Notes under the pieces: model-generated | Databases searched by the model: none | Told to the model about the DNA's origin: nothing | What the model saw: only the letters and a program-made list of their open reading frames with translations | Translations under genes and position numbers: made by a program | Assembly: GCA_032622095.1 (NCBI GenBank) | Contig: CP136064.1 | Location: forward strand, 7,681,512-7,745,511 | Direction: 5' to 3' | DNA: 64,000 nucleotides | From: Siphonodentalium dalli | Taxonomy: Eukaryota > Mollusca > Scaphopoda > Gadilida > Siphonodentaliidae | Shown here: positions 1,969-64,000 of the stretch, piece by piece | Position numbering within the stretch: the stretch's first letter is position 1 | How the letters are laid out: each line of letters starts with the position of its first letter

Positions 1969-2085
1969 GTTAGTTTGACTTCTGACTTGGAAAAAGAAAT
2001 ATTGAATTTCATACAGGATGAACAGAAAAGAAAATCCAAAGACTACGGTGATCTGTCAAAAAGAATATCTAACAAAAAGCTTCAG
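1969..2085 (+). CDS. DHX29: DHX29 exon A (N-terminal region)
   Basis: 39 codons, phase 0 to phase 0, from VSLTSDLEKE to ISNKKLQ. The acceptor is TTTCATTTAG and the donor CAG|GTATGT. It corresponds to the lysine-rich segment that ends in KKLQ just before the UBA-like helix bundle of DHX29. The last 45 nt of this exon together with 8 nt of intron are the founding unit of the 53-bp array that follows. The exons carrying the start codon were not found in 1-1968. Confidence 0.9.
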
Positions 2086-5000
2086 GTATGTCAGACTACG
2101 GTGATCTGTCAAAAAGAATATCTAGCAAAAAGCTTCAGGTATGTAAGACTACGGTGATCTGTCAAAAAGAATATCTAACAAAAAGCTTCAGGTATGTCAG
2201 ACTACGGTGATCTGTCAAAAAGAATATCTAACAAAAAGCTTCAGGTATGTAAGACTACGGTGATCTGTCAAAAAGAATATCTAGCAAAAAGCTTCAGGTA
2301 TGTCAGACTACGGTGATCTGTCAAAAAGAATATCTAGCAAAAAGCTTCAGGTATGTAAGACTACGGTGATCTGTCAAAAAGAATATCTAACAAAAAGCTT
2401 CAGGTATGTCAGACTACGGTGATCTGTCAAAAAGAATATCTAACAAAAAGCTTCAGGTATGTAAGACTACGGTGATCTGTCAAAAAGAATATCTAACAAA
2501 AAGCTTCAGGTATGTATAACTACGGGGATCTGTCAAAAAGAATATCTAACAAAAAGCTTCAGGTATGTAAGACTACGGTGATCTGTCAAAAAGAATATCT
2601 AGCAAAAAGCTTCAGGTATGTCAGACTACGGTGATCTGTCAAAAAGAATATCTAGCCAAAAGCTTCAGGTATGTAAGACTACGGTGATCTGTCAAAAATA
2701 ATATCTAACAAAAAGCTTCCGGTATGTCAGGCTACGGTGATCTGTCAAAAAGAATATCTAGCAAAAAGCTTCAGGTATGTCAGACTACGGTGATCTGTCA
2801 AAAAGAATATCTAGCAAAAAGCTTCAGGTATGTAAGACTACGGTGATCTGTCAAAAAGAATATCTAACAAAAAGCTTCAGGTATGTAAGACTACGGTGAT
2901 CTGTCAAAAAGAATATCTAGCAAAAAGCTTCAGGTATGTCAGACTACGGTGATCTGTCAAAAAGAATATCTAGCAAAAAGCTTCCGGTATGTAAGACTAC
3001 AGTGATCTGTCAAAAAGAATATCTAGCAAAAAGCTTCAGGTATGTCAGACTACGGTGATCTGTCAAAAAGAATATCTAGCAAAAAGCTTCCGGTATGTCA
3101 GACTATGGTGATCTGTCAAAAAGAATATCTAGCAAAAAGCTTCCGGTATGTCAGACTACGGTGATCTGTCAAAAAGAATATCTAGCAAAAAGCTTCAGGT
3201 ATGTAAGACTACGGTGATCTGTCAAAAAGAATATCTAACAAAAAGCTTCAGGTATGTCAGACTATGGTGATCTGTCAAAAAGAATATCTAGCAAAAAGCT
3301 TCAGGTATGTCAGACTACGGTGATCTGTCAAAAAGAATATCTAGCAAAAAGCTTCAGGTATGTCAGACTACGGTGATCTGTCAAAAAGAATATCTAGCAA
3401 AAAGTTTCAGGTATGTCAGACTACGGTGATCTGTCAAAAAGAATATCTAGCAAAAAGCTTCCGGTATGTAAGACTACAGTGATCTGTCAAAAAGAATATC
3501 TAGCAAAAAGCTTCAGGTATGTAAGACTACGGTGATCTGTCAAAAAGAATATCTAGCAAAAAGCTTCAGGTATGTCAGACTACGGTGATCTGTCAAAAAG
3601 AATATCTAGCAAAAAGCTTCCGGTATGTCAGACTACGGTGATCTGTCAAAAAGAATATCTAACAAAAAACTTCCTCTAATTTTAAAGATGTTCTCCATGA
3701 TTTCATTTGCAAGTATACTTTGTTTACATAAGTATATACTTAACATGTTTCTAGTACAGGCTATCGCTTATCATGTGGTGACTGGTGAATGAAACTCACT
3801 ATTATCAAATACTTACATGTAACTTGTCCTTAAATTTCCGGTTTGGGGCCCACCTTTGTGATTTGTATCTGGAAGTTTGCTGAAATTATAGTTTCCGTAA
3901 CATAAGTTTGCTTTCTTTATATTGTTTGTATGTTTGGTTATTCATAACACTGAAAGGAATCGCTATGTTCGTTCTAATGAACTCACAAACATTATAACCA
4001 TGACATCACCGAGAACTGTGTTGGTATTGAATACATTGTGCTCATTAGTCATTACTGGTTGTTTATGATCCACTTTATTAACATAACAATTACATCAGCC
4101 AATGCCTGAAACAACCAGTGACAGCAGTTACCCTGCACCCGGCCAATAAGCCATATTACGGAATGCTTCCACTGATGTTATTAATATTATGTAATATTAA
4201 TTTATTATAGTCGATTATTGACAATTGATTATCAAAATCAATAATTGTGGCACCTCTACAATATTTCTGATCTTTTTGGTTTCCTAATCACAACCTTGGT
4301 TATTTCATCTACTAAAATTAAATTTTCTTGTTTAATTAGCACCTAGTTTTCCAAAAATAGTCACATTATCGGGGGGAAATGTATTCCAGAGTATTCTATC
4401 TTAACCCTTTACCCAACAAACCGGCCAAAACCGGCCAAATAAAGCTTCAACAGCCTAAAATATCTTCGGTCTGTCTCAATAGAACCATACAAATATGGAT
4501 ATCATTGGAACCGGCTCCTTGACCACATTGTGATGGTTACAGTTATGCCCATATATAAGAGAATGCATTGGCCTAAAAAAATCTTTTTTTTAACACTTTT
4601 GACCATTTTTTCTTACATTCTTTAACAATTTTATAATTTTTAATGTGTTAAGCCAATGCATTCTCTTATATATGCGAGGCGACCTATGGTCGACTCGCAA
4701 TTATAAGAGAATGCATTGGCACAGGGCCGTTCTGTTGGGTAAAGGGTTAATCTAATTTTATCTTATCCAGGATATGTATGATTGTTTGTCTGACGTCGGA
4801 TTTGAACATAAGCAAATTGAATCTGCCATGCTCAATACAGTCAAATATGGAGGTGATATAAAGGATGCCCTGGACTGGCTCTGCCTCAATCTAGCAGATG
4901 GTTAGTCTTAGACAAGTACAGTAATGCCCTAAGTAATCGACCTCTTAACCAAAGCAGAATTATGGGTAACTTTTCAGGATTTAGTCGGAAATATGGCTTG

Positions 5001-10632: not shown

Positions 10633-10686
<54 letters not shown>

Positions 10687-13600: not shown

Positions 13601-16600
13601 ACCGCTGCACACTATATTTTCTTTTTTATTCAGTTTTACGATAGCAAATGTCAATAAAATACATACTCTGAGGCACTAAAGCGTGCCTGTAAGTAATGAA
13701 CGAGAACGAGAATCAGCGAGAGGAAACGAGAACCAGCGAGATGAAACGAGAACCGGCGAGACGAGACGATAACCAACCAGTCGCGTAACTGCAGCAAAGT
13801 GCGAAAATCAATTATCACAAAGGCAGTGACAACATGTTGTACGCTGATGGATGTGTGTTTATTGTCGCCTAACATGCAGCTCAAATTAGTGTACACAAAG
13901 CAATAATTTGACCATGGTCGCCATCCATACAATTACGAAATGTAAACTATACTCTTACCATTGTTTCCGCGCTAATGTTTGTCCACCATTGAGACACCAC
14001 GGATAAATACATATTGCTTGGGGACATTCTTAGTATAATCTGGACTTAAATCCCCTCATTGTACATGTATATACTTGTTTGTTTGTTGTTTTTTTGCAAA
14101 AGCGACGTCGGTAGTACCCCACACATTGTTAAGATCACAATCGACATGCATTGCGTTGTCCTCTTTTCGCGTGTCCGCGTGACGCTGCATTCACACGTGA
14201 ATAATGCATTTCGTACTGCATGTCCCAAAGGATCTTAACTAGCGAAATGTTTGGACATTATTCTTGACGGTATTTAGTCATACCGCGGTATGGAAATTAA
14301 TACCGTAGTCGGTATTGTGAAGGTGGATACCGTGAAGCTCTACCGCGGATGATAATTTTTTTTTAAATCTGTCCAGTCAATCAATGTTCCCTGTGAACAC
14401 GCATCTTGGTGCCATTGAAAGCGTGTGGAATTGTCACATACTTTTTGAAAACGGACTATAGTTCGTTTTGAAGAGAATCCCATTGTGTATCGATTGCGTC
14501 ACCTGACATATATATAGCACTTAATTTGATTTCGCGGGCTTAGGTGTCTGCTGTACTTTTAGTTTTGTTATTAAAAGTCTGTGCATGCGGTTACCACTTT
14601 GGAGAATGTAATGCATGTAGCACTAATAAGTGACGACACAAACTTGTTACTGATAACTGTCCAGTAACTTTGAACATTCCATGTCCCGCGAACACTTCGT
14701 GACTTTGTCAATAATGGTGAACATTTTAAAGTATGAAATTTGAAAAATTAAATATTGATGCATTCCGATGCACATCGTTCATTATGGATATAATGATCGC
14801 TAATTACCAATCCATAGAAACATAAATTCACAGTTAAACATACTTTATAAACAATGACAAGGCTGTGACGCGGCATAAAAGCAAAGGATGCTGGCCCGCC
14901 ACTGACTGTGAGAACATGTCACACACGGAACTCTTTGAAGATGACCGCCAAACTTCTGCTGTGACATCAAAGGATCAAAAGGAAGCCGCATCAGAAGTGG
15001 CGAGAGAACAGGCTGTCGGGTGGTGAATTGTGCTACATACACTGTTAACTTTTACTTCCAGGCATGGCATTTGCGCATAGTACTGCTTAAATAAACTCCC
15101 ATACCCACACCCCCCCCCCCCCCCCCCCCCCCCCTGGGCGATTAGTCGACGATTGTAAATAACCGTCGACTACCACACCTGTCGAAGGTTAGTCAATTAA
15201 TTGAATAATCGTGGCAAGCCTAAATAACCTACAAAATACATCATGTTTGTACAGTAAAACCTCTCCAAACTGAACACCCTTCAGACCGGCCCTTCTGTTC
15301 GGTTTAGAGAGGTGTTCGATTTATACAATTATATTGTAAGAGTTTTCTGAAATGATTGGTATTGATTGAACAATATTTTTCAACTTTCTTGATGAATTAA
15401 TAAGTGACTTGCCAAAACTATTCGCAAATGAAAATATTTTTTTCCAAATGTGAATTATTTTTGTCACTGGCAAATTCGGCAAGTGGCAGCGCAAACCCTG
15501 GTGTTGAATTAGAAATTTGAATCGTGGAAACGGGTCTGTTAATCTCGCTTGTATATAAAATATACCACAATAGATAGAATAAAAAGTTTCCCCAACAGAT
15601 TGATCGCGAATTCTAATGCACTTAAGCCAATAAACCCCTGGAAACATCACATATTTGCGGGGGGTTATTCATCGATACCTGTTGCAATGTATATACCGGT
15701 TCACCGCTTCAATGTTAGATATTCTTGGGCGCAGCTGAATTCCTAATCTCGCCCAATCCAGATCTGCTCACTGTTCCGTTTCTATCCATGACGTCACCCT
15801 TTCGCAGTCCATGCCGATGACGTTACGGAGTAGATGTATAGAGTAGGCGCCCGGGGTACTGACTTCCGTTACTAGCTCGTTGCTATATAAACAAACCAGC
15901 GGCATTGCTTTTGTCGAAATTTGACAGTCAGTACATTCGCCCTGTATACATGTACATTCAGAAAACACAAAACACCACACTGTTATATCCCATCAATATC
16001 ATTGTCTCGATATCATTTGACCAAATTTCTTGACACGAAACCTCGACAGAAACGGCATGAAATACATCTCATTGAGTAAACAATTTTCCATTGTTTCAAT
16101 TCAACTTAAAGTTCGCCGTAAAATCAAAACCGCAATTTGTAAGTGGTAAACATCTGAAAAAGACATCAGGTACATGTAGAAACTAATTGTTGTGCATATT
16201 TATTTGTATTTGAGGTGGCATTTTTTCATCTTTATCAGCATTTTTAAAGATAAGAACGATGCTGATTGAGGAACTATATTTTATCCAGCGCATTAAAATT
16301 AAAACAAAAAGTCGTGAATTGGCAGAGTGTTTTCTATGTCTGCACATTTCATCGATAATTACAAGACATGTGTGTGTCGAAATAACGTTTTAAGTTCGAA
16401 GAGAATTAGAATTAAAAGGTTGCACATGTTAGAGTTGCGGGACCATACGCACAGCCCTGAGAAACGGGAATTTCACTTTGCATAGTCTTACCATTATTTT
16501 TCTTTAAAAGATTCAAACGAAATCTGAACCAGAGAAACCTAAAGCATCTATGAAGGATTGGATTCTACAGTATGCATGCGATTCTTCGTCAGATGAAGAC

Positions 16601-19600
16601 ACAAGTCCAGTGACTACAGATACCCGTGTTAGCCCAGTGAGTGATTAACTAGCTAAACTATTAGTTACCCCTCTTAACCCTTGCATGACTGGAGCTTCCT
16701 GAAATTTTTTGAAAACCCTGTGCAAATGCATTCTCTTATATATGCAAGTCTCCCATAGGGAGCCTTGCATATATAAGAGAATGCATTGGCCTAACAATAT
16801 TTACCTTGACCTTGTAAGCCAGTGCATTATCTTATATATGCGAGGCTCCCTAACGGAGACTTGCATATATAAGAGAATGCACTGGCATAGAATCTTTCTT
16901 GCTGTACCAATGCAGCTCCCATAATGAAAGGGTTAAACCAGTGCATGTGATGATTTGTCAGATGAAGACACTAGTCCAGTGACTACAGATACCCATGTTA
17001 TCCCAGTGAGTTTAATCAGCTATGCTATTTCAGTTTCCAGGATTAGAATTCATGTTTCAGTGTAGTGTAGATCATGCCATGAATATCTACTATAGATCAT
17101 ACAAAATAGTTCCAGTAATACGTGACTTGTAAATCAGGAACTATATCTTGAAAATCAGGTATTATTTCACACATAATGATGGCTTCTACATTGATGGGAT
17201 CAATCCTTCATCCTTAAAGACATATTGTAGACTTATTTCAGTGAATAAAACTGATAATTTAGTATCCAAACAATCTCCACTGGCAGAATGTAGCAATCAA
17301 CTTTCTATATCGACTGTACCAGAAAACACAATGTTTGAAATTACCACAAATATTTACTACTTTATTCGGGACGAGTTATTGGGTGTGATAAACATGCGCT
17401 GAATCTATTTAGGAGATAAACATACCCTGTTGAGTTGTACATTCTGGGATTCGAGCATGAAAACAGTTTGTGAACGAGCCGGCTTGGCGGCGAGTTCACA
17501 AACTGTTTTCATGCTCGAATCCCAGAATGTACAACGAAACAGGGTACGTTTATCTCCATTGTAATTCAATCTAGCAAGGAATTTGCAAAAAAACTGAATA
17601 AAAAGTATCATTTAGTCATTTTCATGACACGAATCGAGACTTTCATTTCGCCGTTGTCACCGTGCACAAATCATTGGGTTTGTTCATTGCGTTACTCGGA
17701 ACACTGCTCCGTAACCATTTCCTGTGGGGCGGGTTGGCTCGTTTCGCTACTCCGTTCTGCGCCGATGAAATTGTACCGTGCCACATTCAGATTTGATGCA
17801 CGCTGAGCGGCCGATGAACGGTATCTGTAGACAACAACGCGCGGGTGTGCTCGTTTCGCTACTCGTTCTGCGCCGATGAAATTTGACCGTGCTACATTCA
17901 GATTTGATGCACGCTGAGTGGCCAATGTCGGTGAATCGAAAACGAAAGTTAGATGCTCTCGGCCAATCAGAATGCTTGTTTTTAGTGACAAATACTCAAT
18001 TGAATTACAATCCGTTATAACAGTGACGCTGCTTTCTGTCGATATTTGGATATAATGTTCCATTATGAACACCTCAGTTGAGTGTTTCACGTCACTTAAA
18101 ACTGTTATTTTTTAATTCATTAACACATTTAACAAATTAAGAGCTTAGTTCATAGCTACAGAAGAAAGTATGCAGCTATATACAGATACTGCTTTCGGTT
18201 CTTAGCTTTTGAAGACGTTGATGGCATTAAAGATGTAATTGAATTTGTCTGAAGTATTCATAATACAGAGACAGGCCTGATAATATGGTGCTGGACATTT
18301 GCAGAATGAGGTCCCCAGAGGGTGAATTTAGTGACACTAACAGCAGGCTACCATCACCAAATTCATCCTCTGGGGACCTCATTCTGCATGGTCTCATCTG
18401 CTATGGGAGACCTTGAGTCAGATATAAGTTCCTAGATTTTGAAAATGGTTATGTGCACCCATTGGGCACCTCCATTATGCATTGTGTCATCTGCCAATTT
18501 GTGATGTAGAGAAACTAAACTAAAATAGAAAAAGAAACTTTCTAAATAAGCTAAAAATCCTGTTAATTTGATAATAAAGAAACTTTCCAGAGAAGATGAG
18601 ACCAAAGCAGAATGAGGTCCCTAGAAGGTGAATTTAGTAATGCTAGCCCATTGTGTGGGTAGCGTCTCCAAATTCACCTTCTGGGGACCTTATTCTGCGA
18701 ATGTCCAGCTCATTATTTTCAGGCCTGTACAGGGACCAACTGCTAATAGTTGAAATCTTGCTATTTTGGACTTGTTACTCGATAAATTCAAAAATTTTAA
18801 AGACATACTATGGACTTTTTGGGTGCATGAGTTTCATAAGTTAGTACCCAGACGCTATACCAACCATCAAAGAAACCAACCACACCACTCCATGGAAAGC
18901 ATTGTCTGAATGACGCTCAATAATTCAATTGTAAATATATTTACATCTCGATTCAGGACGCACCTATTGGCAATAAACTAACACAAATTATTTCACCATC
19001 GAGAGTCATTGCATTTAAGTAATATTTAAGAATGACTGTGTTTGTTGTCAATTTGGATTAATATTCGTAAAATATTACTACTTTGAGCAAGATTATTCTC
19101 CATTTCTATTTGATCACCCTACAAGAGTGTTTCACATCACTTTAAACATATTGGTGTGACATTTTGATTCTGAATCCATTTTCAGAATGATAAGTATCAA
19201 AACCTGCAAGAAAAACTATACGAAGCAAGACTAGATGCTCAACAAGCGAAGAAGGATGGGAACAGGTCTATTCACAGGGAGGTGTCAAAGATGATCAATG
19301 AATTAACAATAGGTATACCACAATCACAAACAACCTTTTTTCATGCATGGACTATGGAAATATCCTGCATTGGGTCTTTTTATATTTTCTTGACGATATG
19401 TTTATTATCAATTGATTTATGTGCATGTATCAGATCAAAGAATATGCAACTTTAATTTGATTTGTTTTTTGTCAGTGGAGCCGTCCATCCTTTGGGGTGT
19501 CTGTCAGTTTGATTTTGGTTTCCGGATGATAACTTTAGATAGCCTCAACTGAATGGAATGAAATTTTGTATGTGGGTTTACTAGCACAAAATACAGCTCA

Positions 19601-31014: not shown

Positions 31015-31085
<71 letters not shown>

Positions 31086-45400: not shown

Positions 45401-48400
45401 TCAACTCATACCGGTACTCGATATCATTTTCTTACAGTATAGCTATAGCCCTGATCAACTCATACCGGTACTCGATATCATTTTCTTACAGTATAGCTAT
45501 AGCCCTGATCAACTCATACAGGTACTCAATATCATTTTCTTACAGTATAGCTATAGCCCTGATCAACTCATACAGGTACTCAATATCATTTTCTTACAGT
45601 ATAGCTATAGCCCTGATCAACTCATACCGGTACTCGATATCATTTTCTTACAGTATAGCTATAGCCCTGATCAACTCATACCGGTACTCGATATCATTTT
45701 CTTACAGTATGCCTATAGCCCTGATCAACTCACACAGGTACTGGATACAGTATGCCTATAGCCCTGATCAACTCATACCGGTACTCAATATCATTTTCTT
45801 ACAGTATAGCTATAGCCCTGATCAACTCATACAGGTACTCAATATCATTTTCTTACAGTATAGCTATAGCCCTGATCAACTCATACCGGTACTCGATATC
45901 ATTTTCTTACAGTATAGCTATAGCCCTGATCAACTCATACCGGTACTCGATATCATTTTCTTACAGTATAGCTATAGCCCTGATCAACTCATACCGGTAC
46001 TCGATATCATTTTCTTACAGTATAGCTATAGCCCTGATCAACTCACACCAGTACTCAATATCATTTTCTTACAGTATAGCTATAGCCCTGATCAACTCAT
46101 ACCGGTACTCGATATCATTTTCTTACAGTATAGCTATAGCCCTGATCAACTCTCACCAGTACTCGATATCATTTTCTTACAGTATAGCTATAGCCCTGAT
46201 CAACTCATACCGGTACTCGATATCATTTTCTTACAGTATAGCTATAGCCCTGATCAACTCATACCGGTACTCAATATCATTTTCTTACAGTATGCCTATA
46301 GCCCTGATCAACTCATACCGGTACTCGATATCATTTTCTTACAGTATAGCTATAGCCCTGATCAACTCATACCGGTACTCGATATCATTTTCTTACAGTA
46401 TGCCTATAGCCCTGATCAACTCATACAGGTACTGGATACAGTATTCCTATAGCCCTGATCAACTCATACCGGTACTCGATATAATTTTCTTACAGTATGC
46501 CTATAGCCCTGATCAACTCATACAGGTACTCAATATCATTTTCTTACAGTATGCCTATAGCCCTGATCAACTCATACCGGTACTCGATATCATTATCTTA
46601 CAGTATGCCTATAGCCCTGATCAACTCATACAGGTACTCGATATCATTATCTTACAGTATGCCTATAGCCCTGATCAACTCATACCGGTACTCGATATCA
46701 TTTTCTTACAGTATGCCTATAGCCCTGATCAACTCATACCGGTACTCGATATCATTTTCTTACACTATAGCTATAGCCCTGATCAACTCATACAGGTACT
46801 CAATATCATTATCTTACAGTATGCCTATAGCCCTGATCAACTCATACCGGTACTCAATATCATTATCTTACAGTATGCCTATAGCCCTGATCAACTCATA
46901 CAGGTACTGGATACAGTATAGCTATAGCCCTGATCAACTCATACCGGTACTCAATATCATTTTCTTACAGTATGCCTATAGCCCTGATCAACTCATACAG
47001 GTACTCAATATCATTTTCTTACAGTATGCCTATAGCCCTGATCAACTCATACCGGTACTCGATATCATTATCTTACAGTATGCCTATAGCCCTGATCAAC
47101 TCATACAGGTACTCGATATCATTATCTTACAGTATGCCTATAGCCCTGATCAACTCATACCGGTACTCGATATCATTTTCTTACAGTATGCCTATAGCCC
47201 TGATCAACTCATACCGGTACTCGATATCATTTTCTTACACTATAGCTATAGCCCTGATCAACTCATACAGGTACTCAATATCATTATCTTACAGTATGCC
47301 TATAGCCCTGATCAACTCATACCGGTACTCAATATCATTATCTTACAGTATGCCTATAGCCCTGATCAACTCATACCGGTACTCGATATCATTATCTTAC
47401 AGTATGCCTATAGCCCTGATCAACTCATACCGGTACTCGATATCATTATCTTACAGTATGCCTATAGCCCTGATCAACTCATACAGGTACTCGATACAGT
47501 ATGCCTATAGCCCTGATCAACTCATACGGGTACTCAATATCATTATCTTACAGTATGCCTATAGCCCTGATCAACTCATACCGGTACTCGATATCATTTT
47601 CTTACAGTATAGCTATAGCCCTGATCAACTCACACAGGTACTGGATACAGTATGCCTATAGCCCTGATCAACTCTCACCAGTACTCAATATCATTTTCTT
47701 ACAGTATAGCTATAGCCCTGATCAACTCATACAGGTACTCAATATCATTTTCTTACAGTATAGCTATAGCCCTGATCAACTCATACCGGTACTCGATATC
47801 ATTTTCTTACAGTATAGCTATAGCCCTGATCAACTCATACCGGTACTCGATATCATTTTCTTACAGTATAGCTATAGCCCTGATCAACTCATACCGGTAC
47901 TCGATATCATTTTCTTACAGTATAGCTATAGCCCTGATCAACTCATACCGGTACTCGATATCATTTTCTTACAGTATAGCTATAGCCCTGATCAACTCAT
48001 ACAGGTACTCAATATCATTTTCTTACAGTATAGCTATAGCCCTGATCAACTCATACAGGTACTCAATATCATTTTCTTACAGTATAGCTATAGCCCTGAT
48101 CAACTCATACCGGTACTCGATATCATTTTCTTACAGTATAGCTATAGCCCTGATCAACTCATACCGGTACTCGATATCATTTTCTTACAGTATGCCTATA
48201 GCCCTGATCAACTCACACAGGTACTGGATACAGTATGCCTATAGCCCTGATCAACTCATACCGGTACTCAATATCATTTTCTTACAGTATAGCTATAGCC
48301 CTGATCAACTCATACAGGTACTCAATATCATTTTCTTACAGTATAGCTATAGCCCTGATCAACTCATACCGGTACTCGATATCATTTTCTTACAGTATAG

Positions 48401-51400
48401 CTATAGCCCTGATCAACTCATACCGGTACTCGATATCATTTTCTTACAGTATAGCTATAGCCCTGATCAACTCATACCGGTACTCGATATCATTTTCTTA
48501 CAGTATAGCTATAGCCCTGATCAACTCACACCAGTACTCAATATCATTTTCTTACAGTATAGCTATAGCCCTGATCAACTCATACCGGTACTCGATATCA
48601 TTTTCTTACAGTATAGCTATAGCCCTGATCAACTCTCACCAGTACTCGATATCATTTTCTTACAGTATAGCTATAGCCCTGATCAACTCATACCGGTACT
48701 CGATATCATTTTCTTACAGTATAGCTATAGCCCTGATCAACTCATACCGGTACTCAATATCATTTTCTTACAGTATGCCTATAGCCCTGATCAACTCATA
48801 CCGGTACTCGATATCATTTTCTTACAGTATAGCTATAGCCCTGATCAACTCATACCGGTACTCGATATCATTTTCTTACAGTATGCCTATAGCCCTGATC
48901 AACTCATACAGGTACTGGATACAGTATTCCTATAGCCCTGATCAACTCATACCGGTACTCGATATAATTTTCTTACAGTATAGCTATAGCCCTGATCAAC
49001 TCATACCGGTACTCAATATCATTTTCTTACAGTATGCCTATAGCCCTGATCAACTCATACAGGTACTCAATATCATTTTCTTACAGTATGCCTATAGCCC
49101 TGATCAACTCATACCGGTACTCGATATCATTATCTTACAGTATGCCTATAGCCCTGATCAACTCATACAGGTACTCGATATCATTATCTTACAGTATGCC
49201 TATAGCCCTGATCAACTCATACCGGTACTCGATATCATTTTCTTACAGTATGCCTATAGCCCTGATCAACTCATACCGGTACTCGATATCATTTTCTTAC
49301 ACTATAGCTATAGCCCTGATCAACTCATACAGGTACTCAATATCATTATCTTACAGTATGCCTATAGCCCTGATCAACTCATACCGGTACTCAATATCAT
49401 TATCTTACAGTATGCCTATAGCCCTGATCAACTCATACCGGTACTCGATATCATTATCTTACAGTATGCCTATAGCCCTGATCAACTCATACCGGTACTC
49501 GATATCATTATCTTACAGTATGCCTATAGCCCTGATCAACTCATACAGGTACTCGATACAGTATGCCTATAGCCCTGATCAACTCATACGGGTACTCAAT
49601 ATCATTATCTTACAGTATGCCTATAGCCCTGATCAACTCATACCGGTACTCGATATCATTTTCTTACAGTATGCCTATAGCCCTGATCAACTCATACCGG
49701 TACTCGATATCATTTTCTTACAGTATGCCTATAGCCCTGATCAACTCATACAGGTACTCGATATCATTATCTTACAGTATGCCTATAGCCCTGATCAACT
49801 CATACAGGTACTCAATATCATTATCTTACAGTATGCCTATAGCCCTGATCAACTCATACCGGTACTCGATATCATTTTCTTACAGTATGCCTATAGCCCT
49901 GATCAACTCATACAGGTACTCAATATCATTATCTTACAGTATAGCTATAGCCCTGATCAACTCATACCGGTACTCGATACAGTATGCCTATAGCCCTGAT
50001 CAACTCATACAGGTACTCAATATCATTATCTTACAGTATAGCTATAGCCCTGATCAACTCATACCGGTACTCGATATCATTTTCTTACAGTACGCCTATA
50101 GCCCTGATCAACTCATACAGGTACTGGATACAGTATGCCTATAGCCCTGATCAACTCATACAGGTACTCAATATCATTATCTTACAGTATGCCTATAGCC
50201 CTGATCAACTCATACCGGTACTCGATACAGTATGCCTATAGCCATGATCAACTCACACAGGTACTCGATATCATTATCTTACAGTATGCCTATAGCCCTG
50301 ATCAACTCATACCGGTACTCGATACAGTATGCCTATAGCCCTGATCAACTCACACAGGTACTCGATATCATTATCTTACAGTATGCCTATAGCCCTGATC
50401 AACTCACACAGGTACTCGATATCATTATCTTACAGTATGCCTATAGCCCTGATCAACTCATACCGGTACTCAATATCATTATCTTACAGTATGCCTATAG
50501 CCCTGATCAACTCATACAGGTACTCAATATCATTATCTTACAGTATGCCTATAGCCCTGATCAACTCATACAGGTACTCGATATCATTATCTTACAGTAT
50601 GCCTATACCCCTGATCAACTCATACAGGTACTCGATATCATTATCTTACAGTATGCCTATAGCCCTGATCAACTCATACAGGTACTCGATATCATTATCT
50701 TACAGTATGCCTATAGCTCTGATCAACTCATACCGGTACTCAATATCATTATCTTACAGTATGCCTATAGCCCTGATCAACTCATACCGGTACTCAATAT
50801 CATTATCTTACAGTATGCCTATAGCCCTGATCAACTCATACAGGTACTCAATATCATTATCTTACAGTATGCCTATAGCCCTGATCAACTCACACAGGTA
50901 CTGGATATCATTATCTTACAGTATGCCTATAGCTCTGATCAACTCATACAGGTACTCAATATCATTATCTTACAGTACGCCTATAGCTCTGATCAACTCA
51001 TACAGGTACTGGATATCATTATCTTACAGTATGCCTATAGCCCTGATCAACTCATACAGGTACTGGATATCATTATCTTACAGTATGCCTATAGCTCTGA
51101 TCAACTCATACAGGTACTGGATACAGTATGCCTATAGCCCTGATCAACTCATACAGGTACTCGATACAGTATGCCTATAGCCCTGATCAACTCACACAGG
51201 TACTCGATACAGTATGCCTATAGCTCTGATCAACTCATACAGGTACTCGATATCATTATCTTACAGTATGCCTATAGCTCTGATCAACTCATACCGGTAC
51301 TCGATATCATTATCTTACAGTATGCCTATACCCCTGATCAACTCACACAGGTACTCGATATCATTATCTTACAGTATGCCTATAGCCCTGATCAACTCAC

Positions 51401-54400
51401 ACAGGTACTGGATATCATTATCTTACAGTATGCCTATAGCCCTGATCAACTCATACCGGTACTCGATATCATTATCTTACAGTATGCCTATAGCTCTGAT
51501 CAACTCATACCGGTACTCGATATCATTATCTTACAGTATGCCTATAGCCCTGATCAACTCATACAGGTACTCAATATCATTATCTTACAGTATGCCTATA
51601 GCCCTGATCAACTCATACAGGTACTCAATATCATTATCTTACAGTATGCCTATAGCCCTGATCAACTCATACAGGTACTCAATATCATTATCTTACAGTA
51701 TGCCTATAGCCCTGATCAACTCATACAGGTACTCAATATCATTATCTTACAGTATGCCTATAGCCCTGATCAACTCATACAGGTACTCAATATCATTATC
51801 TTACAGTATGCCTATAGCCCTGATCAACTCATACAGGTACTCGATATCATTATCTTACAGTATGCCTATAGCCCTGATCAACTCACACAGGTACTGGATA
51901 CAGTACGCCTATAGCCCTGATCAACTCATACAGGTACTCGATATCATTATCTTACAGTATGCCTATAGCCCTGATCAACTCATACAGGTACTCGATATCA
52001 TTATCTTACAGTATGCCTATAGCCCTGATCAACTCATACAGGTACTCGATATCATTATCTTACAGTATGCCTATAGCCCTGATCAACTCACACCGGTACT
52101 CGATATCATTATCTTACAGTATGCCTATAGCCCTGATCAACTCATACAGGTACTGGATATCATTATCTTACAGTATGCCTATAGTCCTGATCAACTCATA
52201 CAGGTACTCGATACAGTATGCCTATAGCTCTGATCAACTCATACAGGTACTCGATACAGTATGCCTATAGCTCTGATCAACTCATACAGGTACTGGATAT
52301 CATTATCTTACAGTATGCCTATAGCCCTGATCAACTCATACAGGTACTCGATATCATTATCTTACAGTATGCCTATAGCCCTGATCAACTCATACAGGTA
52401 CTGGATACAGTACGCCTATAGCTCTGATCAACTCATACAGGTACTCGATACAGTATGCCTATAGCTCTGATCAACTCATACAGGTACTGGATATCATTAT
52501 CTTACAGTATGCCTATAGCCCTGATCAACTCATACAGGTACTCGATATCATTATCTTACAGTATGCCTATAGCCCTGATCAACTCATACAGGTACTGGAT
52601 ACAGTATGCCTATAGCCCTGATCAACTCATACAGGTACTCGATACAGTATGCCTATAGCTCTGATCAACTCATACAGGTACCTGATATCATTATCTTACA
52701 GTATGCCTATAGCTCTGATCAACTCATACAGGTACTGGATATCATTATCTTACAGTATGCCTATAGCCCTGATCAACTCATACCGGTACTCAATATCATT
52801 ATCTTACAGTATGCCTATAGCTCTGATCAACTCATACCGGTACTGGATATCATTATCTTACAGTATGCCTATAGCTCTGATCAACTCATACAGGTACTGG
52901 ATATCATTATCTTACAGTATGCCTATAGCTCTGATCAACTCATACAGGTACTGGATATCATTATCTTTCAGTATGCCTATAGCCCTGATCAACTCACACA
53001 GGTACTCGATATCATTATCTTACAGTATGCCTATAGCTCTGATCAACTCATACAGGTACTCGATATCATTATCTTACAGTATGCCTATAGCTCTGATCAA
53101 CTCACACAGGTACTCGATATCATTATCTTACAGTATGCCTATAGCTCTGATCAACTCATACCGGTACTCGATATCATTTTCTTACAGTATAGCTATAGCC
53201 CTGATCAACTCACACAGGTACTGGATACAGTATGCCTATAGCCCTGATCAACTCATACAGGTACTCGATATCATTATCTTACAGTATGCCTATAGCCCTG
53301 ATCAACTCATACAGGTACTCGATATCATTATCTTACAGTATGCCTATAGCTCTGATCAACTCATACAGGTACTCGATATCATTATCTTACAGTATGCCTA
53401 TAGCTCTGATCAACTCACACAGGTACTCGATATCATTATGTTACAGTATGCCTATAGCTCTGATCAACTCATACCGGTACTCGATATCATTTTCTTACAG
53501 TATAGCTATAGCCCTGATCAACTCACACAGGTACTGGATACAGTATGCCTATAGCCCTGATCAACTCATACAGGTACTCGATATCATTATCTTACAGTAT
53601 GCCTATAGCCCTGATCAACTCATACAGGTACTCGATATCATTATCTTACAGTATGCCTATAGCCCTGATCAACTCACACAGGTACTCGATATCATTATCT
53701 TACAGTATGCCTATAGCCCTGATCAATTCATACAGGTACTCAATATCATTATCTTACAGTATGCCTATAGCCCTGATCAACTCATACAGTTACTGGATAT
53801 CATTATCTTACAGTATGCCTATAGCCCTGATCAACTCATACCGGTACTCGATATCATTATCTTACAGTATGCCTATAGCTCTGATCAACTCATACAGGTA
53901 CTCGATATCATTATCTTACAGTATGCCTATAGCTCTGATCAACTCATACAGGTACTCGATATCATTATCTTACAGTACGCCTATAGCCCTGATCAACTCA
54001 TACAGTTACTGGATATCATTATCTTACAGTATGCCTATAGCCCTGATCAACTCATACAGGTACTCGATATCATTATCTTACAGTATGCCTATAGCTCTGA
54101 TCAACTCATACAGGTACTCGATATCATTATCTTACAGTATGCCTATAGCTCTGATCAACTCATACAGGTACTCAATATCATTATCTTACAGTATGCCTAT
54201 AGCCCTGATCAACTCATACAGGTACTCAATATCATTATCTTACAGTATAGCTATAGCCCTGATCAACTCATACAGGTACTCGATACAGTACGCCTATAGC
54301 CCTGATCAACTCATACAGGTACTCGATATCATTATCTTACAGTACGCCTATAGCTCTGATCAACTCATACAGGTACTCGATATCATTATCTTACAGTATG

Positions 54401-57400
54401 CCTATAGCTCTGATCAACTCATACCGGTACTCAATATCATTATCTTACAGTATGCCTATAGCTCTGATCAACTCATACCGGTACTCGATATCATTATCTT
54501 ACAGTATGCCTATAGCCCTGATCAACTCATACAGGTACTCGATATCATTATCTTACAGTATGCCTATAGCCCTGATCAACTCATACAGGTACTGGATACA
54601 GTATGCCTATAGCCCTGATCAACTCATACAGGTACTCGATATCATTATCTTACAGTATGCCTATAGCCCTGATCAACTCATACAGGTACTCGATATCATT
54701 ATCTTACAGTATGCCTATAGCTCTGATCAACTCATACAGGTACTCGATATCATTATCTTACAGTATGCCTATAGCTCTGATCAACTCATACCGGTACTCG
54801 ATATCATTATCTTACAGTATGCCTATAGCCCTGATCAACTCATACAGGTACTCGATATCATTATCTTACAGTATGCCTATAGCCCTGATCAACTCATACA
54901 GGTACTGGATACAGTATGCCTATAGCCCTGATCAACTCATACAGGTACTGGATATCATTATCTTACAGTATGCCTATAGCCCTGATCAACTCATACAGGT
55001 ACTCGATATCATTATCTTACAGTATGCCTATAGCTCTGATCAACTCATACAGGTACTCGATATCATTATCTTACAGTATGCCTATAGCTCTGATCAACTC
55101 ATACAGGTACTCGATATCATTATCTTACAGTATGCCTATAGCCCTGATCAACTCATACAGGTACTCGATATCATTATCTTACAGTATGCCTATAGCCCTG
55201 ATCAACTCATACAGGTACTCGATATCATTATCTTACAGTATGCCTATAGCTCTGATCAACTCATACAGGTACTGGATATCATTATCTTACAGTATGCCTA
55301 TAGCCCTGATCAACTCATACCGGTACTCGATATCATTATCTTACAGTATGCCTATAGCCCTGATCAACTCATACCGGTACTCGATATCATTATCTTACAG
55401 TACGCCTATAGCCCTGATCAACTCATACCGGTACTCGATATCATTATCTTACAGTATGCCTATAGCTCTGATCAACTCATACCGGTACTCAATATCATTA
55501 TCTTACAGTATAGCTATAGCCCTGATCAACTCATACCGGTACTCGATATCATTATCTTACAGTATGCCTATAGCTCTGATCAACTCATACCGGTACTCAA
55601 TATCATTATCTTACAGTATAGCTATAGCCCTGATCAACTCATACAGGTACTCGATATCATTATCTTACAGTATGCCTATAGCTCTGATCAACTCATACAG
55701 GTACTCGATATCATTATCTTACAGTATGCCTATAGCCCTGATCAACTCATACAGGTACTCGATATCATTATCTTACAGTATAGCTATAGCCCTGATCAAC
55801 TCATACCGGTACTCGATATCATTATCTTACAGTATGCCTATAGCTCTGATCAACTCATACAGGTACTCGATATCATTATCTTACAGTATGCCTATAGCTC
55901 TGATCAACTCATACAGGTACTCGATATCATTATCTTACAGTATGCCTATAGCCCTGATCAACTCATACAGGTACTCGATATCATTATCTTACAGTATGCC
56001 TATAGCCCTGATCAACTCATACAGGTACTCGATATCATTATCTTACAGTATGCCTATAGCCCTGATCAACTCATACCGGTACTCGATATCATTATCTTAC
56101 AGTACGCCTATAGCCCTGATCAACTCATACCGGTACTCGATATCATTATCTTACAGTATGCCTATAGCCCTGATCAACTCATACCGGTACTCGATATCAT
56201 TATCTTACAGTATGCCTATAGCCCTGATCAACTCATACCGGTACTCAATATCATTTTCTTACAGTACGCCTATAGCCCTGATCAACTCATACAGGTACTC
56301 GATATCATTATCTTACAGTATGCCTATAGCCCTGATCAACTCATACAGGTACTCGATATCATTATCTTACAGTATGCCTATAGCCCTGATCAACTCATAC
56401 AGGTACTGGATACAGTATGCCTATAGCCCTGATCAACTCATACCGGTACTGGATACAGTATGCCTATAGCCCTGATCAACTCATACAGGTACTCGATACA
56501 GTATGCCTATAGCTCTGATCAACTCACACAGGTACTGGATACAGTATGCCTATAGCCCTGATCAACTCATACAGGTACTGGATACAGTATGCCTATAGCC
56601 CTGATCAACTCATACAGGTACTGGATACAGTATGCCTATAGCCCTGATCAACTCATACAGGTACTGGATACAGTATGCCTATAGCTCTGATCAACTCACA
56701 CAGGTACTCGATATCATTTTCTTACAGTATGCCTATAGCCCTGATCAACTCATACAGGTACTCGATATCATTATCTTACAGTATGCCTATAGCTCTGATC
56801 AACTCATACAGGTACTGGATATCATTATCTTACAGTATGCCTATAGCCCTGATCAACTCATACAGGTACTGGATACAGTATGCCTATAGCTCTGATCAAC
56901 TCATACAGGTACTGGATATCATTTTCTTACAGTATGCCTATAGCCCTGATCAACTCATACAGGTACTCGATATCATTATCTTACAGTATGCCTATAGCCC
57001 TGATCAACTCATACCGGTACTCAATATCATTATCTTACAGTATGCCTATAGCTCTGATCAACTCATACAGGTACTCGATATCATTATCTTACAGTATGCC
57101 TATAGCCCTGATCAACTCATACCGGTACTCAATATCATTATCTTACAGTATGCCTATAGCCCTGATCAACTCATACCGGTACTGGATATCATTATCTTAC
57201 AGTATGCCTATAGCCCTGATCAACTCATACAGGTACTGGATATCATTATCTTACAGTATGCCTATAGCCCTGATCAACTCATACAGGTACTGGATATCAT
57301 TATCTTACAGTATGCCTATAGCCCTGATCAACTCATACAGGTACTGGATACAGTATGCCTATAGCCCTGATCAACTCATACAGGTACTGGATACAGTATG

Positions 57401-60400
57401 CCTATAGCTCTGATCAACTCATACAGGTACTGGATACAGTATGCCTATAGCTCTGATCAACTCATACCGGTACTCGATACAGTATGCCTATAGCTCTGAT
57501 CAACTCACACAGGTACTGGATACAGTATGCCTATAGCCCGGATCAACTCATACAGGTACTCGATATCATTATCTTACAGTATGCCTATAGCTCTGATCAA
57601 CTCATACAGGTACTGGATACAGTATGCCTATAGCTCTGATCAACTCATACAGGTACTGGATACAGTATGCCTATAGCCCTGATCAACTCATACAGGTACT
57701 CGATACAGTATACCTATAGCTCTGATCAACTCATACAGGTACTCGATACAGTATGCCTATAGCCCTGATCAACTCACACAGGTACTGGATACAGTATTCC
57801 TATAGCTCTGATCAACTCATACCGGTACTCGATACAGTATGCCTATAGCCCTGATCAACTCACACAGGTACTGGATACAGTATACCTATAGCTCTGATCA
57901 ACTCATACAGGTACTCGATACAGTATGCCTATAGCCCTGATCAACTCACACAGGTACTGGATACAGTATTCCTATAGCTCTGATCAACTCATACCGGTAC
58001 TCGATACAGTATGCCTATAGCCCTGATCAACTCATACAGGTACTCGATATCATTATCTTACAGTATGCCTATAGCCCTGATCAACTCATACAGGTACTCG
58101 ATATCATTATCTTACAGTATGCCTATAGCCCTGATCAACTCATACAGGTACTGGATACAGTATGCCTATAGCCCTGATCAACTCATACAGGTACTGGATA
58201 TCATTATCTTACAGTATGCCTATAGCCCTGATCAACTCATACAGGTACTGGATACAGTATGCCTATAGCCCTGATCAACTCATACCGGTACTCGATATCA
58301 TTATCTTACAGTATGCCTATAGCCCTGATCAACTCATACAGGTACTCGATATCATTATCTTACAGTATGCCTATAGCCCTGATCAACTCATACAGGTACT
58401 GGATACAGTATGCCTATAGCCCTGATCAACTCATACAGGTACTGGATACAGTATGCCTATAGCCCTGATCAACTCATACAGGTACTGGATACAGTATACC
58501 TATAGCTCTGATCAACTCATACAGGTACTGGATACAGTATGCCTTTAGCCCTGATCAACTCATACAGGTACTGGATACAGTATGCCTATAGCTCTGATCA
58601 ACTCATACAGGTACTGGATACAGTATGCCTATAGCCCTGATCAACTCACACAGGTACTGGATACAGTATGCCTATAGCCCTGATCAACTCATACAGGTAC
58701 TGGATACAGTATGCCTATAGCCCTGATCAACTCATACAGGTACTGGATACAGTATGCCTATAGCCCTGATCAACTCATACAGGTACTGGATACAGTATGC
58801 CTATAGCTCTGATCAACTCATACAGGTACTGGATACAGTATACCTATAGCTCTGATCAACTCATACAGGTACTCGATATCATTATCTTACAGTATGCCTA
58901 TAGCCCTGATCAACTCATACAGGTACTGGATACAGTATGCCTATAGCCCTGATCAACTCATACAGGTACTGGATACAGTATGCCTATAGCCCTGATCAAC
59001 TCATACAGGTACTGGATACAGTATACCTATAGCTCTGATCAACTCATACCGGTACTGGATACAGTATGCCTATAGCCCTGATCAACTCATACAGGTACTG
59101 GATACAGTATGCCTATAGCTCTGATCAACTCATACAGGTACTCGATACAGTATGCCTATAGCTCTGATCAACTCATACAGGTACTGGATACAGTATGCCT
59201 ATAGCTCTGATCAACTCATACAGGTACTGGATACAGTATGCCTATAGCTCTGATCAACTCATACAGGTACTCGATACAGTATGCCTATAGCTCTGATCAA
59301 CTCATACAGGTACTGGATACAGTATTCCTATAGCTCTGATCAACTCATACCGGTACTGGATACAGTATGCCTATAGCTCTGATCAACTCATACAGGTACT
59401 GGATACAGTATGCCTATAGCCCTGATCAACTCATACAGGTACTGGATACAGTATGCCTATAGCCCTGATCAACTCACACAGGTACTCGATACAGTATGCC
59501 TATAGCTCTGATCAACTCATACAGGTACTCGATACAGTATGCCTATAGCTCTGATCAACTCATACAGGTACTGGATACAGTATGCCTGTAGCTCTGATCA
59601 ACTCACACAGGTACTAGATACAGTATGCCTATAGCTCTGATCAACTCATACAGGTACTGGATACAGTATGCCTATAGCCCTGATCAACTCACACAGGTAC
59701 TCGATACAGTATGCCTATAGCTCTGATCAACTCATACAGGTACTCGATACAGTATGCCTATAGCTCTGATCAACTCATACAGGTACTGGATACAGTATAC
59801 CTATAGCTCTGATCAACTCACACAGGTACTGGATACAGTATGCCTATAGCTCTGATCAACTCATACAGGTACTGGATACAGTATGCCTATAGCTCTGATC
59901 AACTCACACAGGTACTGGATACAGTATGCCTATAGCCCTGATCAACTCACACAGGTACTCGATATCATTATCTTACAGTATGCCTATAGCCCTGATCAAC
60001 TCATACAGGTACTGGATACAGTATGCCTATAGCCCTGATCAACTCATACAGGTACTGGATACAGTATGCCTATAGCTCTGATCAACTCACACAGGTACTG
60101 GATACAGTATGCCTATAGCTCTGATCAACTCATACAGGTACTCGATACAGTATGCCTATAGCTCTGATCAACTCATACAGGTACTCGATATCATTATCTT
60201 ACAGTATGCCTATAGCCCTGATCAACTCATACAGGTACTGGATACAGTATGCCTATAGCTCTGATCAACTCACACAGGTACTGGATACAGTATGCCTATA
60301 GCTCTGATCAACTCATACAGGTACTGGATACAGTATGCCTATAGCCCTGATCAACTCATACCGGTACTGGATACAGTATGCCTATAGCCCTGATCAACTC

Positions 60401-63400
60401 ATACAGGTACTCGATACAGTATGCCTATAGCTCTGATCAACTCATACAGGTACTCGATATCATTATCTTACAGTATGCCTATAGCCCTGATCAACTCATA
60501 CAGGTACTCGATATCATTATCTTACAGTATGCCTATAGCTCTGATCAACTCATACCGGTACTGGATACAGTATGCCTATAGCCCTGATCAACTCATACAG
60601 GTACTGGATACAGTATGCCTATAGCTCTGATCAACTCATACAGGTACTGGATACAGTATGCCTATAGCTCTGATCAACTCATACAGGTACTGGATACAGT
60701 ATGCCTATAGCTCTGATCAACTCATACAGGTACTAGATACAGTATGCCTATAGCTCTGATCAACTCATACCGGTACTGGATACAGTATGCCTATAGCCCT
60801 GATCAACTCATACCGGTACTGGATACAGTATGCCTATAGCCCTGATCAACTCATACAGGTACTCGATACAGTATGCCTATAGCTCTGATCAACTCATACA
60901 GGTACTCGATACAGTACGCCTATAGCCCTGATCAACTCATACAGGTACTGGATACAGTATGCCTATAGCCCTGATCAACTCATACAGGTACTGGATACAG
61001 TATGCCTATAGCTCTGATCAACTCATACAGGTACTCGATACAGTACGCCTATAGCCCTGATCAACTCATACAGGTACTGGATACAGTATGCCTATAGCTC
61101 TGATCAACTCATACAGGTACTCGATACAGTACGCCTATAGCCCTGATCAACTCATACAGGTACTGGATACAGTATGCCTATAGCCCTGATCAACTCATAC
61201 AGGTACTCGATACAGTACGCCTATAGCCCTGATCAACTCATACAGGTACTGGATACAGTATGCCTATAGCTCTGATCAACTCATACAGGTACTCGATACA
61301 GTACGCCTATAGCCCTGATCAACTCATACAGGTACTGGATACAGTATGCCTATAGCTCTGATCAACTCATACAGGTACTCGATACAGTACGCCTATAGCC
61401 CTGATCAACTCATACAGGTACTGGATACAGTATGCCTATAGCCCTGATCAACTCATACAGGTACTGGATACAGTATGCCTATAGCTCTGATCAACTCATA
61501 CAGGTACTGGATACAGTACGCCTATAGCCCTGATCAACTCATACAGGTACTGGATACAGTACGCCTATAGCCCTGATCAACTCATACAGGTACTGGATAC
61601 AGTATGCCTATAGCCCTGATCAACTCATACAGGTACTCGATACAGTATGCCTATAGCCCTGATCAACTCACACAGGTACTGGATACAGTACGCCTATAGC
61701 CCTGATCAACTCACACAGGTACTGGATACAGTATGCCTATAGCCCTGATCAACTCACACAGGTACTGGATACAGTACGCCTATAGCTCTGATCAACTCAT
61801 ACAGGTACTGGATACAGTATGCCTATAGCCCTGATCAACTCATACAGGTACTGGATACAGTATGCCTATAGCTCTGATCAACTCATACAGGTACTGGATA
61901 CAGTATGCCTATAGCTCTGATCAACTCATACAGGTACTGGATACAGTATGCCTATAGCTCTGATCAACTCATACAGGTACTCGATACAGTATGCCTATAG
62001 CCCTGATCAACTCATACAGGTACTGGATACAGTATGCCTATAGCTCTGATCAACTCATACAGGTACTGGATACAGTACGCCTATAGCTCTGATCAACTCA
62101 TACAGGTACTGGATACAGTATGCCTATAGCCCTGATCAACTCATACAGGTACTGGATACAGTATGCCTATAGCCCTGATCAACTCACACAGGTACTGGAT
62201 ACAGTATACCTATAGCCCTGATCAACTCATACAGGTACTCGATACAGTATACCTATAGCTCTGATCAACTCACACAGGTACTGGATACAGTATACCTATA
62301 GCTCTGATCAACTCACACAGGTACTGGATACAGTATGCCTATAGCTCTGATCAACTCATACAGGTACTGGATACAGTATGCCTATAGCCCTGATCAACTC
62401 ATACAGGTACTGGATACAGTATGCCTATAGCCCTGATCAACTCATACAGGTACTGGATACAGTATGCCTATAGCTCTGATCAACTCATACAGGTACTGGA
62501 TACAGTATACCTATAGCCCTGATCAACTCATACAGGTACTCGATACAGTATGCCTATAGCCCTGATCAACTCATACAGGTACTGGATACAGTATGCCTAT
62601 AGCTCTGATCAACTCATACAGGTACTGGATACAGTATACCTATAGCCCTGATCAACTCATACAGGTACTCGATACAGTATACCTATAGCTCTGATCAACT
62701 CACACAGGTACTGGATACAGTATACCTATAGCTCTGATCAACTCACACAGGTACTGGATACAGTATGCCTATAGCTCTGATCAACTCATACAGGTACTGG
62801 ATACAGTATGCCTATAGCCCTGATCAACTCATACAGGTACTGGATACAGTATGCCTATAGCTCTGATCAACTCATACAGGTACTCGATACAGTATGCCTA
62901 TAGCTCTGATCAACTCATACAGGTACTGGATACAGTATGCCTATAGCTCTGATCAACTCACACAGGTACTGGATACAGTATGCCTATAGCTCTGATCAAC
63001 TCATACAGGTACTCGATACAGTATGCCTATAGCTCTGATCAACTCATACAGGTACTGGATACAGTATTCCTATAGCTCTGATCAACTCATACCGGTACTG
63101 GATACAGTATGCCTATAGCTCTGATCAACTCATACAGGTACTGGATACAGTATGCCTATAGCCCTGATCAACTCATACAGGTACTGGATACAGTATGCCT
63201 ATAGCCCTGATCAACTCACACAGGTACTCGATACAGTATGCCTATAGCTCTGATCAACTCATACAGGTACTCGATACAGTATGCCTATAGCTCTGATCAA
63301 CTCATACAGGTACTGGATACAGTATGCCTATAGCTCTGATCAACTCACACAGGTACTAGATACAGTATGCCTATAGCTCTGATCAACTCATACAGGTACT

Positions 63401-64000
63401 GGATACAGTATGCCTATAGCCCTGATCAACTCACACAGGTACTCGATACAGTATGCCTATAGCTCTGATCAACTCATACAGGTACTCGATACAGTATGCC
63501 TATAGCTCTGATCAACTCATACAGGTACTGGATACAGTATACAGGTCTATAGCTCTGATCAACTCACACAGGTACTGGATACAGTATGCCTATAGCTCTG
63601 ATCAACTCATACAGGTACTGGATACAGTATGCCTATAGCTCTGATCAACTCACACAGGTACTGGATACAGTATGCCTATAGCCCTGATCAACTCACACAG
63701 GTACTCGATATCATTATCTTACAGTATGCCTATAGCCCTGATCAACTCATACAGGTACTGGATACAGTATGCCTATAGCCCTGATCAACTCATACAGGTA
63801 CTGGATACAGTATGCCTATAGCTCTGATCAACTCACACAGGTACTGGATACAGTATGCCTATAGCTCTGATCAACTCATACAGGTACTCGATACAGTATG
63901 CCTATAGCTCTGATCATCTCATACAGGTACTCGATATCATTATCTTACAGTATGCCTATAGCCCTGATCAACTCATACAGGTACTGGATACAGTATGCCT
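42437..64000 (+). repeat. Giant 54/43-bp array grown from exon N tail plus donor
   Basis: At least 21.5 kb, running off the window; about 430 units judged from length. The 54-bp unit is 30 nt of exon-like sequence (TATAGCTATAGCCCTGATCA to CATACAG) plus 24 nt of intron-like GTACTCGATATCATTTTCTT ending ACAG. The 43-bp unit lacks 11 nt (TCATTTTCTTA). The 54-bp form dominates to about 56.4 kb and the 43-bp form after that. CAG|GTACT is kept in almost every copy. The 54-bp form translates to an open 18-residue repeat, YSYSPDQLIQVLDIIFLQ. The long reading frames here come from this periodicity. Confidence 0.97.

Follow-up and report, generated by a model that had tools for sequence, protein, structure and literature searches.

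We analysed a 64,000-nt stretch of contig CP136064.1 (positions 7,681,512 to 7,745,511, forward strand; "the window"), which is free of N bases and carries part of a DHX29 gene. Of its 14 exons, seven (half) carry a boundary that recurs, together with its splice site, in two to hundreds of copies. The part present covers positions 1969 to 42466 of the window and extends from the UBA region into the beginning of the helicase core; it lies on the plus strand, as do all repeat copies described here. Guided by frame and splice signals, we assembled by hand 14 exons, named A (1969-2085), B (4771-4900), C (8593-8714), D (16511-16636), E (19186-19312), F (19913-20116), G (21845-22025), H (26624-26750), I (33498-33593), J (34019-34144), K (35588-35869), L (38253-38522), M (39835-40011) and N (42377-42466). 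Together they encode 725 codons without a stop, their phases agree, and GT..AG is found at every complete intron. Comparison of the spliced protein with solved structures gave DHX29 chain 22tu_DH as the top match (residues 3-717, E=8.5e-181), and the Pfam domains above the cut-offs comprise the DHX29 UBA domain (UBA_DHX29, 6.6e-28), a double-stranded RNA-binding-like domain and a DEAD box. Judged by frame, structure match and Pfam, the gene is DHX29; more 3′ exons would lie past the window end. The 13 complete introns measure 425 to 7,796 bp with a mean, calculated by hand, of ∼2.9 kb, close to the ∼3 kb given in a preliminary description of the locus. Scans for tRNAs and for Rfam families at the gathering score gave no matches in the window.

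Local direct duplications cover 7 of the 28 exon edges, namely the donors of exons A, D, H, K, L and N and the acceptor of exon M. That one boundary is copied in seven of the 14 exons had been proposed in the preliminary description and is borne out by Tandem Repeats Finder (TRF), by a search of the sequence against itself with the Basic Local Alignment Search Tool (self-BLAST) and by alignment of the flanks. Self-BLAST covered positions 1-42440; the donor of exon N falls outside this range and was judged from its TRF array. At the remaining 21 edges, self-BLAST found no match at E 1e-3, and 120-bp windows aligned to 3-kb flanks scored at most 28, compared with 56-209 for the seven; the 120-bp alignment is used here only for absence at these 21 edges. 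Each repeat unit joins a piece of exon to a piece of intron, with 44+9 nt (exon+intron) in A, 64+33 in D, 24+13 in H, 28+18 in K, 24+23 in L, 74+20 in M and 24-30+24 (or 13) in N. The 5′ splice site had been placed inside every donor unit. It does lie within the donor units, except that array A and the first H block each end in a copy that stops short of it, and at the acceptor edge the outermost (first) copy of M has a degenerate or lost acceptor.

Array A (2042..3673) has a TRF period of 53 bp with 30.8 copies and 96% matches, and its first copy contains the exon donor at 2085/2086. The donor reads CAG/GTATG in 24 of 31 copies and CCG/GTATG in six, while the final copy has none. Mean pairwise identity among the 30 full copies is 96%, and along copies 1-8 two variants alternate, forming a 106-bp dimer. 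One codon of the unit is either AAC or AGC (Asn/Ser), with AAC in the exon copy, so that the array could, through gene conversion, overwrite the end of exon A. In array K (35842..36343; exon donor 35869/35870), TRF and self-BLAST confirm the 11 copies counted earlier, with units of 44-48 bp rather than 43-48 bp. Its exon part begins just after the sequence encoding GETGSGKS, GGT[A/T]AG is present in all 11 copies, and TRF reports a longer period of 90. The only duplicated acceptor belongs to array M (39655..39909; TRF period 94, 2.7 copies), whose last copy is the exon acceptor at 39834/39835. As judged by eye and without a tree, the terminal copies diverge in A (the last) and in M (the first).

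Array H (26727..26930; exon donor 26750/26751) consists of 5.5 copies of a 37-bp unit according to TRF. About 5.4 kb downstream, degenerate H units followed by the 3′ flank of the first block form a remote set (32387..32556), detected by local alignment with 26806-26965. Between the two blocks are an inverted repeat of 228 nt (99%) and a fragment of a reverse transcriptase, which maps to 28107-29033 on the minus strand inside the H intron (Pfam RVT_1, 8.6e-28). The fold-back at 29083-31849, whose arms measure 228 and 78 nt, are 99-100% complementary and lie 2.2-2.3 kb apart, resembles a recent inverted element.

The duplications at D and L consist of two copies each, as described before. D copy 1 (16573..16669; exon donor 16636/16637) aligns locally with D copy 2 (16942..17038), with 86% identity over 90 bp in BLAST (E=7e-22); the alignment sets the unit at ∼97 bp, not ∼110 bp. 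The copies are 369 bp apart and parted by palindromic sequence resembling miniature inverted-repeat transposable elements (MITEs), with inverted repeats between 16674 and 16936. L copy 1 (38499..38545, 47 bp; exon donor 38522/38523) is 84% identical to L copy 2 (38999..39047, 49 bp), which lies 500 bp downstream, again with a palindromic element (38655-38841) in between. The L copies had been called dispersed. The separated copies of D and L, like the remote units of H, seem to be old local duplications that were later parted by inserted elements.

The longest array, N (42441..64000; exon donor 42466/42467), is built from 54- and 43-bp units, fills more than 21.5 kb within the window and runs beyond its end. 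We counted 430 anchors from 42443 to 63957, with spacings of 54 in 249 and 43 in 173 of the 429 intervals; mainly 54-bp units give way to mainly 43-bp units along the array. TRF also reports longer periods of 86 and 129, 2,127 exact 200-mers are repeated, most frequently at an offset of 2,483, and 302 exact 1,000-mers recur. Among the 430 units, 418 carry a C[A/C]GGTACT donor, 234 an acceptor-like motif and 223 both, and in 127 copies CCG/GT replaces CAG/GT. The 234 cassettes consist of the acceptor-like TT[A/T]TCTTACAG, 30 nt and GTACT, and the 30 nt are open in 234/234. Array N may be a two-sided repeat, and its cassettes a candidate source of microexons. The figures for A (53 bp, about 31 copies), H (37 bp, 5.5 copies plus a remote set), M (94 bp, acceptor side) and N (54/43 bp, hundreds of copies) agree with those first reported.

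None of the 21 pairs among the seven units shows similarity at p<0.05 relative to shuffled sequence. This fits seven independent duplication events, as had been proposed. In BLAST, the closest copies within A, H and M share 95-97% identity, compared with 86% and 84% for the D and L pairs. Misassembly of repeats could inflate copy numbers. The recurring 1,000-mers of array N would be in keeping with it, and excerpts of two studies (PMC3087553, PMC3902484) report that amphioxus assemblies were misassembled or disagreed on exon-edge repeats of this type, termed mirages. The D and L copies, however, differ by ∼15%, and in A, K and H individual copies can be told apart by their variants; an artefact could alter the length of N but hardly the existence of the seven duplications, and we regard it as a highly improbable explanation.

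To ask which copies can be read, we translated the gene with alternative copies, relying on frame logic only. Later A donors lead to a stop in 29/29 cases, as do the alternative donors of K (10/10) and H (4/4), copy 2 of both D and L, and the acceptor upstream of exon M's own. For N, with frames judged without the following exon, which lies beyond the window, 422 of 424 donors (the first included) run into a stop; the two that leave the frame open are the exon's own donor and its immediate successor, whose use would lengthen the exon by 54 nt without a frame shift (+18 residues). The eight array donor motifs score 6.4-11.8 bits, compared with 0.6-11.2 for the gene's own donors (left-one-out, small matrix). 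Since the extra donors score like the gene's own, the cell must favour the exon-proximal copy or lose much product. We infer that it uses the copy adjoining the exon (the first in a donor array, the last in an acceptor array), a choice that would make sense of a gene that is still readable.

A selected function for the additional splice sites was also considered. Extra 5′ splice sites might recruit the U1 small nuclear ribonucleoprotein, aiding splicing or guarding a long pre-mRNA from early polyadenylation. Six of the seven edges are donors, and the array donor motifs score approximately as high as the native donors, as such a function would have it. Against it, introns with and without such repeats overlap in length, CCG/GT occurs in 6/31 A copies and 127 N copies, and the acceptor array M does not fit. 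We therefore consider a selected function very unlikely.

Taken together, these observations probably identify the edge arrays of DHX29 as mirages, that is, tandem repeats that straddle a junction and are tolerated through exon-proximal splicing. According to this explanation, a short stretch across an exon/intron junction would be duplicated in tandem, and the array would then grow and homogenise by ordinary repeat turnover, through unequal exchange or slippage. Signs of turnover are the dimer alternation in A, the longer TRF periods in K and N and the long exact repeats in N. Splicing would take the copy adjoining the exon, the remaining copies would fall into the intron, and the array would be tolerated; the arrays themselves are presumably neutral. 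Selection would hold the exon copy, so that an array might shrink to one unit and then regrow, and old duplicates would stay recognisable. Persistence of this kind, by tolerance and retention, may be the main source of the excess of repeats at edges, an explanation on which we are about evenly divided.

Whether there is an excess depends on how the repeats are counted. In an event test, founding units of the observed length were placed at random and scored for how often they straddle an edge. Of the 18 local duplication events, seven straddle an edge where 0.68 are expected (∼10-fold), and none of 200,000 random runs reached seven. For tandem arrays only, the numbers are 5/12 and 0.33 (P about 1e-5), and doubling all unit lengths in the event test still gave P=1.2e-4. 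The event list retains 20 of 48 merged segments, corresponding to 14 events, after 28 segments of palindromic or MITE-like families were dropped; the addition of array N and of three minor TRF arrays (13700, 20432, 30547) brings it to 18, and other TRF rows (short-period, ∼two-copy or inside MITEs) were omitted. The list was sorted by hand with the edge positions known and the window was chosen for the pattern, so these P values are descriptive.

The dropped families occur in many places, for example 7597-7811, 16727-16889 and 39321-39600, and their MITE-like segments have ∼40 dispersed or inverted BLAST matches each in the window. A 26-base MITE motif used as a probe had no match in viral or prokaryote contigs. 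TRF also detects arrays away from any exon edge, at 24919-25478 (43 bp x 13), 32524-32689 (41 bp x 4) and 40148-41391 (18 bp x 68, with a longer period of 450 bp).

The edges might instead lie inside repeats by coincidence, if the introns are so rich in local repeats that some edges are bound to be covered. Direct duplication within 600 bp covers 18% of intronic positions, and by covered bases there is no excess: in a circular-shift test that excluded the N donor, 6 of the other 27 edges fall in repeats compared with a mean of 4.8, and 2,195 of 6,056 shifts give at least as many. Limits of 200, 1,000, 6,000 and 50,000 bp gave no significant excess either, making five distance limits without one. 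The coverage test, however, weights arrays by their present length and includes paired MITEs, and coincidence does not account for the event test, even with doubled units. We think that the event count fits the question better, because an array holds an edge only if its founding unit spanned that edge. On this basis, coincidence is an unlikely explanation, and the earlier claim that edges are crossed more often than at random stands by events and fails by covered bases.

Several points nevertheless weigh against the interpretation as mirages enriched by persistence. The strength of the edge bias depends on counting events, as the coverage test shows at every distance limit. In a control with 120-bp windows, 19% of 400 intronic and 5% of 110 exon-interior points score at least 50, and none of the seven edges is exceptional (fractions 0.095 to 0.19); we take it that the high-scoring control points probably sit in the arrays themselves. 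The open second donor of N makes an extra isoform possible, at least by its frame. Finally, persistence predicts mainly old edge arrays, yet the closest copies within A, H and M reach 95-97% identity, although homogenisation could hide their age.

An edge excess could also come from targeted birth, in which transcribed exon/intron junctions promote short tandem duplications through R-loops, splicing-coupled breakage or RNA-templated repair. The event and array counts above speak for it, as does the recurrence of mirages across several amphioxus genes, but a persistence bias yields an equal excess. The units have no common sequence, and the donor excess of 6 to 1, put forward for a check of donor against acceptor bias, is not significant alone in this gene (two-sided binomial calculated by hand, 0.125). 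We consider targeted birth a tentative possibility. A broader reading, in which junctions are birth hot spots for tandem duplication at ∼10 times the random rate, linked to transcription or splicing, and array N is a two-sided mirage with hundreds of ready microexons, appears doubtful.

Mirages have so far been described gene by gene, and edge preference, be it by targeted birth or better survival, is a genome-wide matter. With seven cases in one gene, ranging from two copies to hundreds and from near-identical to diverged, DHX29 offers a compact test bed for asking if splice junctions are hot spots of tandem duplication and if such repeats serve as raw material for introns and microexons. The pattern would fit a lancelet, although to take it as proof of one would be circular; in an animal of another group, it would mean that mirages at such density also exist outside lancelets.

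The pattern is not an unrecognised phenomenon: mirages, tandem repeats across exon/intron boundaries, were already published for amphioxus. According to excerpts of a 2010 paper, the name was given for Adh3, other loci have mirages too, duplication can affect either the 5′ or the 3′ boundary, the mechanism was called unclear, a path to intron gain was suggested, and in the globin genes BflGb6 and BflGb9 the cluster ends escape homogenisation (PMC3087553). The available portion of a second paper describes repeats of 60 and 108 bp across exons 3 and 4 of lancelet PGBD5 and cites troponin C as another case (PMC3902484). In these excerpts, unit sizes of 10-72, 150-160 and 157, and 60 and 108 bp are given, and copies carry AG/GT signals while splicing is apparently undisturbed (PMC3087553, PMC3902484). 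Among the matches listed by a full-text search, which leaves most subscription journals outside, only these two lancelet papers use the word in this sense, and excerpts of papers on huntingtin and gastropod hemocyanin describe no edge repeats. Human minisatellites at an exon-intron boundary, mentioned in an excerpt of PMC2812944, indicate that exon-edge repeats as such are not confined to lancelets.

Two further systems are related. The origin of introns by tandem duplication is the subject of a review, as far as its excerpt goes (PMC3443670). In intron gain by tandem duplication of AGGT segments, as partially available accounts present it, the duplication likewise holds splice-site sequence and the duplicate is spliced out; the DHX29 units contain AG/GT-like sites but span an existing junction, whereas AGGT units are internal to exons, and a new intron is not in evidence here. 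Variable internal tandem repeats of human segmental duplications occur in recent paralogs, half of them in coding sequence, and the excerpt describing them does not report many repeated edges in one gene, as seen here.

The DHX29 case therefore belongs to a kind of repeat already described. Like amphioxus mirages, arrays A, H, K, M and N consist of tandem units spanning a junction (D and L being two-copy and now split), either boundary can be duplicated (six donors and one acceptor here), and terminal copies diverge. New are the gene, the density of seven in 14 exons, and the length and two-sided units of array N: in contrast to amphioxus, seven mirages lie in one gene within ∼42 kb, one array exceeds 21.5 kb, and many of its units carry acceptor-like together with donor sequence.
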